Positions 7,901-57,034 of a stretch of DNA of 64,000 nt are shown one piece after another. A model generated the notes under the pieces. It had not been told where the DNA came from, ran no database searches, and saw nothing but the letters and a program-made list of their open reading frames with translations. The translations under genes and the position numbers were made by a program. The DNA lies in contig NZ_KK073874.1 of the NCBI RefSeq assembly GCF_000585375.1, forward strand, positions 3,782,001 to 3,846,000, read 5' to 3'. Numbering within the stretch: the stretch's first letter is position 1; the number at the start of each line of letters is the position of its first letter. Source of the stretch: Cryptosporangium arvum DSM 44712 (GTDB lineage: Bacteria; Actinomycetota; Actinomycetes; Mycobacteriales; Cryptosporangiaceae).

Positions 7901-8680
7901 TCAGCCGTCGGCGAGAAGCTGGAGACGGAGCCGGCCGAGGGTCTGGGTGAGCAGTCGCGAGACGTGCATCTGGGAGCAGCCGACGCGCGCGGCGATCTGG
8001 CTCTGCGTCAGGTCCTGGAAGAACCGCATGCCGACGATGCTGCGCTCTCGCTCCGGCAGCCGCGCCAGCGCCACCCGGAGCGCCTCGTGGTTCACGACCG
8101 TCGCCAATGCTGGATCGTCGACGCCCAGCAGCTCGCCCTCCGGTGCGCCACCGGGGTGAGCGTCCAGGGAGATCGGCCGGTAGGCGTGGGTGAGGGCCAG
8201 TGCCTCGGCGACGTCGCCGGGGGAGGCCCCGAGGTAGCCCGCGATCGCGGTGGCGTTGGGGGCGCGATTGTCGCGTGCGGTGAGATCGCTGATCGCGGTG
8301 TTGATCCGCAGGTGCAGGTCGTGCAGCCTCCGCGGAGGACGCACGTACCAGCCGGCGTCCCGGAAATGACGCCGTACTTCGCCCAGGACCGTCGGCACGG
8401 CGTAACTCAGGAAGGCGAAGCCGAGAGCCGGATCGAACCGATCGATGGCTCGCACGAGGCCCAGCCGTGCCACCTGGGTCAGGTCTTCGAGGGGTACGCC
8501 ACGCCGGTCGTAGCGGCGGCTGATGTGGTCAGCGATCGGGAGATGGATCACGACCAGCCTCGTACGGAGCGCGCGGCGCTCGTCGGTGTCGGACGCGAGG
8601 CCGGCGTAACGCCGGAACAGCGGTTCGACGTCGGCGTAGACCGCGTAGTCGGCCGTTTCCTCAGCGGGGGTGGTGGTCAT
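7901..8680 (-). CDS. SigB/SigF-subfamily RNA polymerase sigma factor
   Basis: This 259-residue sigma-70 protein lacks region 1. Region 2 has RLVVIHLPIADHISRRY and the core-binding stretch LTQVARLGLVRAIDRFDP. Region 3 contains PRRLHDLHLRINTAI. Region 4 ends in the HTH LTQSQIAARVGCSQMHVSRL. This architecture is that of the stress/sporulation SigB-SigF-SigG group. The ATG at 8680 is preceded by GAGGGGA; a longer frame to 8860 would run through a conserved non-coding repeat and is rejected. No anti-sigma or anti-anti-sigma gene is adjacent. The 88-bp element at 8783-8870 also occurs upstream of two small peptide genes, which suggests shared control. Confidence 0.92.
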   Translation of the reverse strand: MTTTPAEETADYAVYADVEPLFRRYAGLASDTDERRALRTRLVVIHLPIADHISRRYDRRGVPLEDLTQVARLGLVRAIDRFDPALGFAFLSYAVPTVLGEVRRHFRDAGWYVRPPRRLHDLHLRINTAISDLTARDNRAPNATAIAGYLGASPGDVAEALALTHAYRPISLDAHPGGAPEGELLGVDDPALATVVNHEALRVALARLPERERSIVGMRFFQDLTQSQIAARVGCSQMHVSRLLTQTLGRLRLQLLADG

Positions 8681-8782: not shown

Positions 8783-8870
8783 GTGTGTTCCCCGTGTGCA
8801 TTCAGGTTGGCGCGGATCGGTCGACGGCTCGATCGGTGCGGCGGCGGACGCGATGTTCACCTGCGGACAC
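8783..8870 (-). repeat. leader element, copy 1 (upstream of sigma factor)
   Basis: These 88 bp align without gaps to 18256-18343 and, with small gaps, to about 56932-57020. Shared blocks on the plus strand are GTGTGTTCC, GCGCGGATCGG, GGCTCGATCG and a terminal ACAC; by eye the first pair match at about 70% of positions. All three copies lie upstream of minus-strand genes. Promoter, 5'UTR or small-RNA functions are all possible. Confidence 0.65.
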
Positions 8871-8909
8871 GTCCACTGCTCCGCCGGGCGGTGCGCGCCG
8901 GGCGCCCTC

Positions 8910-17874: not shown

Positions 17875-18055
17875 CAGGGAGGCTGACTTCGTCAGCGGCC
17901 TCGGAAGCGGACTTGGGGCGTCCGCGGCAGCGACGGCCGACCAACACACTCTCATGCCGCGTCCAGCGCGAAGCATTGCTCTGCCGCAGGTGGTGGCGCA
18001 TCGGCCGCTGTCCTGATCGGGTCGAGGCCTGATCGGCGTTCGTGCGGACGCGCCA

Positions 18056-18085
18056 AGGGCCGGGAAGCGTGTGCTCCCCGGCCCT
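18056..18085 (-). terminator. hairpin downstream of peptide gene copy 1
   Basis: The 9-bp stem AGGGCCGGG/CCCGGCCCT encloses a 12-nt loop, starting 17 nt past the stop at 18103 on the minus strand. The second peptide gene has a hairpin in the same position. Confidence 0.75.
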
Positions 18086-18102
18086 GGTGCTGCTGGTGTG
18101 GG

Positions 18103-18231
18103 TCAGCTGCAGGGGTTGTAGTCCCAGCAGTCGTTGTAGCGCTTCTTGTGGTGGCGGCGACGGCGCGGCTTGCACTCGTTGTAGTCCCAGTCGTTGCACT
18201 GGTTGTAGTCGTAGTCGTAGCAGCCGCTCAT
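18103..18231 (-). CDS. 42-residue Cys/Tyr/Asp-rich peptide, paralogue 1
   Basis: Begins MSGCYDYDYNQCNDWDYNEC, then a run KPRRRRHHKKR and an ending NDCWDYNPCS. Cys lie at 4, 12, 20, 35 and 41; two units of C-(7 residues)-C with DY/NY content precede the basic block. There is no signal peptide. A GGAGG site precedes the ATG. The paralogue at 56771-56899 matches at 37 of 42 residues, with the whole C-terminal half identical. The longer in-frame reading to 18351 is rejected because the corresponding upstream sequence of the paralogue is out of frame. Metal binding, a disulfide-rich surface peptide or a nucleic-acid-binding role are all open. I know no described family that matches. Confidence 0.75.
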   Translation of the reverse strand: MSGCYDYDYNQCNDWDYNECKPRRRRHHKKRYNDCWDYNPCS

Positions 18232-18255
18232 GTCGTCCAGCCTCCAGAAGTGTGG

Positions 18256-18356
18256 GTGTGTTCCTGCTGTGCCATGAGCTTCGCGCGGATCGGCGGCGGG
18301 CTCGATCGCCGGCGCGACGGGCGCAACGTTCGCTTCCGAACACTCGCTCATGCCGC
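18256..18356 (-). repeat. leader element, copy 2 (upstream of peptide 1), with GCGGCATGA motif
   Basis: Bases 18256-18343 align without gaps to 8783-8870. Bases 18342-18356, ending in CATGCCGC, are identical to the corresponding end at 57020-57034. The element sits 25 bp before the peptide start. Confidence 0.7.
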
Positions 18357-18389
18357 GCTGCGGTCGCAGCTTGCTGGCTCCTGCGTATA

Positions 18390-18716
18390 TCAGCTGGGCG
18401 TCAACTTGAGCCAGTTCGGCACCGGTCCGCCGCAGTCCATCGCTAGGAGATCGTCCAGCATCCGGTCGAAGTGGTCATCGGCGACGCCGAAAGCGCCACC
18501 CACGCACATGCCCTCGTGCGGCCTCGCCCAGCGGTACGCCGCGACGTCAACCACCGGACCCCGAAACAGCGCGATCTGCCCGTCCGAGCTTCCGCCCGTG
18601 AAACTCAGCAGCCACGTCGGATCCATCCCCGACGGCAACAGTGGACCGCGCAACTCGAGGGCCAGCTCGCGGCCGTGCCGATCGGCCCACCCGGCCAGAA
18701 CCGCACTGAGTCCCAC
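18390..18716 (-). CDS. hypothetical soluble protein
   Basis: The 108-residue protein starts at a GTG. It contains WLLSFTGGSSDGQIALFRG followed by VVDVAAYRWARP and ends VPNWLKLTPS. The size, lack of signal peptide and alternating hydrophobic pattern resemble small immunity or SUKH-like proteins, but no motif settles that. It is followed by the leader element and peptide gene on the same strand, about 35 bp beyond its stop. Family unknown. Confidence 0.55.
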   Translation of the reverse strand: MGLSAVLAGWADRHGRELALELRGPLLPSGMDPTWLLSFTGGSSDGQIALFRGPVVDVAAYRWARPHEGMCVGGAFGVADDHFDRMLDDLLAMDCGGPVPNWLKLTPS

Positions 18717-56666: not shown

Positions 56667-56721
56667 ACGCACTCTTCTGGCGCCGAGTGCTCGTTCGGCG
56701 CGGTGACCGGTGTGCGGACAT

Positions 56722-56759
56722 GACACGGCCCGGAGCGCGGGTGCGTTCCGGGCCGTGTC
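56722..56759 (-). terminator. hairpin downstream of peptide gene copy 2
   Basis: The 13-bp perfect stem GACACGGCCCGGA/TCCGGGCCGTGTC with a 12-nt loop begins 11 nt past the peptide stop. It may also serve the convergent NIPSNAP gene. Confidence 0.85.
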
Positions 56760-56770
56760 GATGAGGAAGG

Positions 56771-56899
56771 TCAGCTGCAGGGGTTGTAGTCCCAGCAGTC
56801 GTTGTAGCGCTTCTTGTGGTGACGACGACGACGCGGCTTGCACTCCTCGTAGGAGTAGTCGTTGCACTCGTTGTACGAGTAGTCGTAGCAGCCGCTCAT
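56771..56899 (-). CDS. 42-residue Cys/Tyr/Asp-rich peptide, paralogue 2
   Basis: Begins MSGCYDYSYNECNDYSYEEC and then shares the basic block and ending (KPRRRRHHKKR; NDCWDYNPCS) exactly with the peptide at 18103-18231. All five differences fall in the first 18 residues, are mostly D/S or N/E swaps, and keep Cys 4, 12, 20, 35, 41 and the aromatic positions. The same ribosome-site segment (TTCTGGAGGCTGGACGAC) precedes the ATG in both. This pattern of substitution suggests selection on the peptide. Upstream lies the shared leader, downstream a terminator. Function unknown. Confidence 0.78.
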   Translation of the reverse strand: MSGCYDYSYNECNDYSYEECKPRRRRHHKKRYNDCWDYNPCS

Positions 56900-56931: not shown

Positions 56932-57034
56932 GGTGTTTTCCCCGTCCTGACACCAGGTTCCCGCGAAACGACTCCCCGCTCGATCGCCGGCCTGACGCCA
57001 CGAACGTTCGGTTCGCAACACTCGCTCATGCCGC
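56932..57034 (-). repeat. leader element, copy 3 (upstream of peptide 2), with GCGGCATGA motif
   Basis: It shares CTCGATCGCCGG, the CGAACGTTCG-like block and the exact end AACACTCGCTCATGCCGC with the leader of peptide 1; spacing differs by a few bases. Confidence 0.65.

Follow-up and report, generated by a model that had tools for sequence, protein, structure and literature searches.

A genus-restricted multicopy family of small Cys/Tyr-rich peptides with a shared promoter block in Cryptosporangium

The window, i.e., the whole stretch of 64,000 nucleotides that was analysed, has a G+C content of 69.0% and corresponds to positions 3782001-3846000 of the single 9,195,993-base contig of the host genome. 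For the type-strain genome of Cryptosporangium arvum about 9.20 Mbp and 71.7% G+C have been published (PMC6113628). Two open reading frames (ORFs) of 42 codons plus a stop lie on the minus strand of the window, at 18103..18231 (copy 1, MSGCYDYDYNQCNDWDYNECKPRRRRHHKKRYNDCWDYNPCS) and at 56771..56899 (copy 2, MSGCYDYSYNECNDYSYEECKPRRRRHHKKRYNDCWDYNPCS); both sets of coordinates are correct in the preliminary description of this DNA, which left the strand unstated. The ATG of copy 1 is preceded by a ribosome-binding segment (18239..18246, minus strand), with GGAGG inside the conserved GGAGGCTGGACGAC. Further upstream lies a 76-base family promoter block (18269..18344, minus strand, PWM score 90.6) containing the words AGTGTT, GAACGTT, GT, and CGATCGA and the -10-like GAAGCT (18277-18282). 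The corresponding block of copy 2 is found at 56947..57022 (minus strand, PWM score 87.0). The ribosome-site segment and leader said to be common to the two copies are thus real, and the conserved promoter block lies beyond them. Past the stop codons, strong GC-rich hairpins lie at 18050..18090 (copy 1, terminator-like) and, from the fold of the downstream bases, at 56719..56763 (copy 2), both on the minus strand. These were described as strong terminators; the folds computed over the 80 bases past the stop are indeed strong, at -41.0 and -39.8 kcal/mol, but the hairpins lack a long T run. Scans restricted to 17900-18500 called neither a consensus terminator nor a sigma-70 promoter.

The two products have 37 of 42 residues in common and do not differ from residue 19 on, exactly as first described. 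The changes do fall within the first 18 residues (8, 11, 15, 16, and 18), but to call all of them conservative was generous, two being D to S. Reading the same coordinates on the plus strand gives an uninformative V/A-rich readthrough artefact, which was discarded.

The presence of two copies in the window is true but gives too low a picture, because the genome has 17. A DNA search of the host genome with 401 bases around copy 1 returned 21 matches; the peptide gene is covered in 17, and a six-frame protein search gave the same number; the copy-1 protein is encoded identically at eight places. In a first protein search of 101 genomes (E up to 0.001), four had matches, all from one genus, with 17 matches in the host genome and 20, 10, and 10 in the congeners G001, G002, and G003, respectively. 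A profile (A1) composed of 26 of the 32 distinct peptide variants gave counts of 17, 18, 10, and 11 in the same order. Across 397 genomes of the order it recovered the same four and, at the borderline, a match in G170 (E 0.0097; profile positions 2-27 within a frame of 346 codons), which was taken as chance, and across 396 genomes of the phylum, a sample overlapping that of the order, it matched the host genome only. The single genome searched from the sister genus (93% complete) had no peptide match. The same holds for collections of genome contigs (DNA pattern plus alignment), viral contigs, plasmids, and phages, where near relatives are possibly absent. The homologues that the preliminary description proposed to seek in actinobacterial genomes do exist, confined to one genus in everything searched.

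From the 57 matches, 47 intact ORFs were extracted (16 from the host, 16 from G001, 5 from G002, and 10 from G003). The filter left out one host copy with a CTG start; four G001 matches, one readable as an intact 42-residue ORF and two at contig ends; and another five from G002, of which four are at contig ends and one has a TAG. Six draft contigs (C11, C21, C31, and C32 of G002; C47 and C75 of G001) end in or beside peptide copies, as near-identical repeats break assemblies, and the copy counts of the drafts are therefore probably off. Judged from the genomes themselves, the peptide genes are a genus-only multicopy family with about ten to twenty scattered copies per genome in all four genomes examined.

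Two local arrangements in the host genome can be mentioned here. Seven peptide copies are clustered at 8.964-8.979 Mb, and one copy (G000:C1:2959945-2960073) is convergent with a second EF-Tu gene (2960232-2961416; 621 bits to TIGR00485).

The 47 peptides are 39-46 residues long, with three to five Cys and two to six His each. The conservation of five Cys that was reported holds for the two window copies, but only two of these positions are kept across the 47 ORFs, namely a Cys before K/R/E-P and a Cys before W, each present in 46 of 47; one ORF lacks the first and another the second. Every ORF contains W-D/S-Y and an Arg/Lys run with His following the P. In the alignment no CxC or CxxC cluster is conserved, and the strongest conservation is that of the Arg/Lys core and W-D-Y. 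V, I, and F are absent from the set, A, L, and T together occur five times, Tyr makes up about 15-20% and Cys 8-11% of the residues, and the net charge lies between -1 and +4, close to zero. Of the copies not among the 47, two stray further: one has the CTG start and a V, and the other contains F and L but lacks the first Cys. As claimed earlier, there is no signal peptide: judged by eye and composition, the N-terminal sequences are of the MSGCYDYDYN type and contain no hydrophobic stretch. An AlphaFold prediction from an alignment of the two window sequences only gave a mean pLDDT of 42 and no confident fold, which, with so shallow an alignment, is weakly compatible with disorder.

The comparison of synonymous and nonsynonymous changes suggested in the preliminary description reveals purifying selection on the C-terminal core, taken from two alignment columns ahead of the conserved P to WDY. 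Using pooled pairwise Nei-Gojobori proportions, in which the pairs are non-independent, the pN/pS of the core is 0.12 within and 0.41 between genomes. That description had made the absence of homologues under purifying selection in the peptide frame an argument against the family; the core escapes this argument, but the N-terminal half does not, with pN/pS of 1.33 within and 1.46 between genomes. Ratios above 1 do not prove positive selection here, because codon bias lowers pS. This bias is strong. In the 16 host ORFs none of 421 Y/D/C/N/H/K codons ends in A or T, whereas 67 other genes called in this analysis have 9-17% of such codons; CGT accounts for 44% of the Arg codons, compared with 10% there; the peptide copies are related and hence not independent in these counts, and the 67 comparison calls were chosen partly on third-position G+C, a few being counted twice in overlapping loci. 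Two EF-Tu genes, one of them read in part, have one A/T-ended codon of this kind in 121 and CGT at 4 of 19 and 5 of 24 Arg codons. As the peptide genes are strongly biased in the direction of EF-Tu, strong translation is likely. The selection on the core, the lengths of 39-46 residues kept despite the spread of leader phases described below, and the codon bias together support translation, and the family is thus probably one of translated peptides, as had been proposed.

A fixed-spacing promoter block scoring above 10 is found within 300 bases upstream of all 47 intact ORFs; the PWM score is at least 34 in 45 of them and 15.9 in the lowest. The logo of 64 sites (at most two mismatches) reads A(-2), TGTT(0-3), A(7), GAACGTT(11-17), GT(24-25), and CGATCGA(34-40), where the conservation at positions 0-40 is partly built in because this stretch was used to pick the sites; bases ahead of -2 carry little information. 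The A(-2) and the -10-like hexamer GAAnCT at positions 60-65 (with A at its second base in 94% and T at its last in 92% of the sites) lie outside the stretch used for picking. We infer that GAAnCT is a -10 element, that CGATCGAGC spans the -35 region, and that the upstream words are the site of a regulator. The distance from GATCGA of the block to the ATG is 56-84 bases in 46 ORFs and 226 in one. In the latter a partial second copy (G003:C11:291102-291377, profile positions 1-26) lies between the promoter block and the ORF, which would explain the distance. The distances fall in all three phases (18, 17, and 12 of the 47), and the leader is therefore no in-frame extension. For the same reason a longer in-frame ORF of copy 1, starting at 18351 (82 residues) with its first codons inside the promoter block, was rejected. 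Downstream, the 80 bases past the stop fold at z < -1.5 relative to mononucleotide shuffles in 43 of the 47 cases. As read from the sequences, the unit is a shared promoter block, a ribosome site, the ORF, and in most cases a stable hairpin, free-standing and scattered in the chromosome.

A 42-base pattern of the promoter at up to three mismatches has 26 matches in the host genome, 17 of which are those of the peptide copies, and none when reversed. A 41-base form has 31, 13, and 21 matches in G001, G002, and G003, with none in the controls, and 13 in five genomes outside the genus, all at three mismatches, with one in the control; at up to two mismatches the pattern is restricted to the genus among the eight genomes scanned. 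The 76-base PWM, which was trained on 46 of the sites that it finds, gave no score above 8 on 1.09 Mb of reversed control sequence (overlapping loci, one strand). It locates 73 distinct sites in the loci examined, 47 ahead of the intact ORFs and 26 elsewhere.

The other 26 sites include further copies or fragments of the family, as well as different genes. A His-rich peptide of 40 residues, MSHHRDDHGHWDHHDDHGKHRRRRRHHRKHRDENWGWGHS, stands behind a family promoter with a PWM score of 45 (G000:C1:8960595-8960714; 4595-4714 of L112), near the cluster of seven copies. It retains RRRRRHHRK while Cys and Tyr are absent, and it occurs in the host genome only, among five genomes searched. Three genomes have a peptide of 46-52 residues behind the promoter, and the fourth retains a remnant of the site; a search of 101 genomes gave 12 with a match, three of them from the genus, and the matches in the nine others (E 0.002-0.008, four of nine with internal stops) were taken as chance. 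Tyr-rich peptides of 37 and 36 residues (MSYGTETYEESGSAGTDYF...; L148 and L152), from two species, have a weak family site (PWM 29.0 and 15.7), and further PWM sites stand ahead of ORFs that encode small membrane proteins or an acetyltransferase. Three promoter-hairpin units (L151, L156, and L161) have no peptide ORF. In the host genome a well-kept but orphan promoter scoring 73 lies in L097/L109 (G000:C1:3165484 on), with no family ORF behind it. A gene for a DUF3558 lipoprotein (Pfam, on the L111 product) has a similar 42-base pattern with two mismatches in two species (L111 from 3557, L159 from 2467); it was rejected as a regulon member, as the upstream sites score below 10 over the 76 bases.

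A third family block occurs in the window itself, at 8796..8871 (minus strand, PWM score 50.7, three mismatches to the 42-base pattern), upstream of a gene at 7901..8680 (minus strand) for an RNA polymerase sigma factor of the SigB/SigF/SigG type. The product (259 residues) scores 241.2 bits against TIGR02980 and passes the curated cut-off of 234.35. The arrangement is suggestive and makes the sigma gene a candidate regulon member. The family promoter precedes it in the host genome only, and the block is absent from 25 other sigma loci, for which reason the gene may also represent a chance capture of an orphan promoter.

The copies show concerted evolution. The eight that encode an identical protein have, on average, 1.5 differences in 129 coding bases, all of them at three Arg codons, as compared with 14.6 in 66 bases of the promoter and 40 in the 58 bases just upstream. 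Across the 47 ORFs, coding sequences have an average identity of 0.894 inside a genome and of 0.777 from one genome to another; for the promoters the values are 0.678 and 0.635, respectively. In 44 of 47 cases the closest coding sequence belongs to the same genome, and in 36 of 47 the closest promoter does; chance would give about 27%, and the promoters thus also bear some genome signal. By these measures, promoter homogenisation is weaker than that of the coding regions, yet present. Three pairs of copies are syntenic between G002 and G003. The motif RDYCWDY occurs in four of the five G002 ORFs, two of which have a syntenic G003 copy; it is absent from those G003 copies, as from the rest of the 42 ORFs of the other genomes. 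At least some loci are thus older than the G002-G003 split, and their coding regions have since been homogenised. Gene conversion plus selection would most simply account for this. No recurrent partner gene was found among ORFs of at least 90 codons within 4.3 kb of the 47 copies (E 1e-12), in agreement with the earlier remark that no modifying enzyme stands beside them; three host copies are near an identical 141-residue ORF, and the other neighbours recur as scattered pairs.

The statement that no described family has this pattern is borne out by Pfam, NCBIfam, PHROGs, PADLOC, and the PDB sequences, all without a match. The 42-residue peptide and its His-rich analogue hit no family at E up to 1, and profile A1 hit no PDB sequence at E up to 10. 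In the literature, consulted as titles and abstract openings among the matches listed and mostly without subscription journals and bioRxiv, no such family is described. Several known systems are comparable. Bacterial metallothioneins such as SmtA and MymT are likewise short, cytosolic, Cys-rich, and poor in aliphatic residues, whereas the present family has two conserved Cys, no conserved CxC or CxxC cluster, and a dominant polybasic core with Tyr, Trp, and Asp. Protamines and small acid-soluble spore proteins are also short and made in bulk, the former with an Arg core accompanied by Cys, Tyr, and His; the family differs from both in its net charge of -1 to +4 and acidic tails, and it shows no relation to them in the libraries searched. 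The chaplins and rodlins of Streptomyces are similarly lineage-restricted multicopy genes for short co-regulated proteins, but they are secreted and hydrophobic, while the family has no signal peptide and almost no aliphatic residues. The enterobacterial type I toxin peptides Ldr and Ibs resemble it as many dispersed, tiny, free-standing genes; they are paired with antisense RNA and are hydrophobic, whereas the peptides found here are highly polar.

In the explanation that we favour, the copies would together amount to a single gene of high dosage, and a genus-specific regulator or form of RNA polymerase would induce them all at once. Their product would be a peptide of the cytosol, mostly disordered, with an acidic and variable N-terminal tail of Tyr, Asp, and Asn and a C-terminal W-D-Y; a basic, His-containing loop would be held between the two conserved Cys (in the order C, 1-2 residues, P, the Arg/Lys/His run, C-W). 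The peptide may act stoichiometrically, the loop binding nucleic acid or another polyanion, with metal or disulfide bonding through Cys and His setting or locking the loop. Contacts between Tyr/Trp and Arg and between acidic and basic residues would make many copies assemble, probably at a certain stage of development or under a certain stress, and the acidic aromatic tail may serve assembly or self-masking. The combination of ligand chemistry with a basic binding surface is suggested by the His-rich analogue, since this keeps RRRRRHHRK and its His without any Cys. We consider the gene-family and regulon parts of this explanation to be very nearly certain on the genomic evidence. The action of the peptide is a different matter: the near-zero net charge is weaker than that of classic nucleic-acid-compacting peptides, and this, as well as the presence of the His-rich analogue in only one of five genomes and the exceptions to the conserved Cys, counts against the proposal, which is possible but doubtful. 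The explanation as a whole, covering family, regulon, and action, is put forward as a tentative one, with somewhat less than an even chance of being right.

Two alternatives, each unlikely but to be taken seriously, assign the peptide a bulk role. One is metal or thiol buffering of the metallothionein kind, in which Cys and His would chelate Zn or Cu, the basic core would provide solubility or localisation, and the copy number would set the capacity. Three to five Cys and two to six His in 39-46 residues, the many copies, and an analogue under the same promoter that has His without Cys, as expected if metal ligation matters, all fit this reading. However, only two Cys are conserved, without a CxC or CxxC cluster, and the Arg/Lys core and W-D-Y are conserved above the spacing of the ligands; we also recognise no known metal-regulator site in the family promoter. 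The other, about equally improbable, is a structural material of spore or sporangium, in which a Tyr- and Cys-rich peptide would be oxidatively cross-linked in a wall or matrix. Cryptosporangium forms sporangia, and the content of Tyr (about 15-20%) and Cys (8-11%) and the multicopy, codon-biased design are consistent with such a use, but a signal peptide is not visible by eye, no partner gene recurs beside the copies, and the retained Arg core with its P and W-D-Y suggests a specific partner.

The contrast between the two halves of the peptide could also be that of a RiPP-like precursor, with a variable N-terminal core (pN/pS 1.33/1.46) and a conserved C-terminal follower, modified by enzymes encoded elsewhere. 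The lack of a recurrent partner gene, the eight identical copies in one genome, and the character of the N-terminal variation, a low-complexity shuffling of Y, D, N, and S, make this quite improbable. Slightly less probable still, the peptide would be incidental to a repeated unit that is mobile or that works as a structured or dual-function RNA. The dispersed copies are of constant extent and the promoter-hairpin units L151, L156, and L161 have lost the ORF, as such a reading would have it, but the flanks are unrelated (40 of 58 positions just upstream differ among the eight copies), and the promoters are nearly as diverged within as between genomes, which argues against recent transposition. 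The selection on the amino acids of the core also speaks against it, and the sole Rfam match around copy 1 is below the gathering score (16.3 vs 70 bits).

To our knowledge, a gene of 42 codons is seldom maintained by bacteria in ten to twenty scattered copies, and we know of even fewer cases in which the coding regions are kept alike while the promoters drift. Returning to the favoured explanation, its boldest form, which we regard as speculative and unlikely as a whole, is a multigene family of one actinobacterial genus, evolving in concert at its scattered loci, with its own promoter class and regulator, encoding a metal- or redox-gated, Tyr/Arg-rich, disordered peptide that would pack nucleic acid or seed a condensate; the sources searched describe none of these components. 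If the peptide is made in bulk, the genus would be marked by a protein of its own, without relatives in the libraries consulted, and its extreme composition, free of V, I, and F and nearly so of A, L, and T, would point towards assembly or the chemistry of metals. The family also lends itself to the study of gene conversion among very small genes at dispersed sites.
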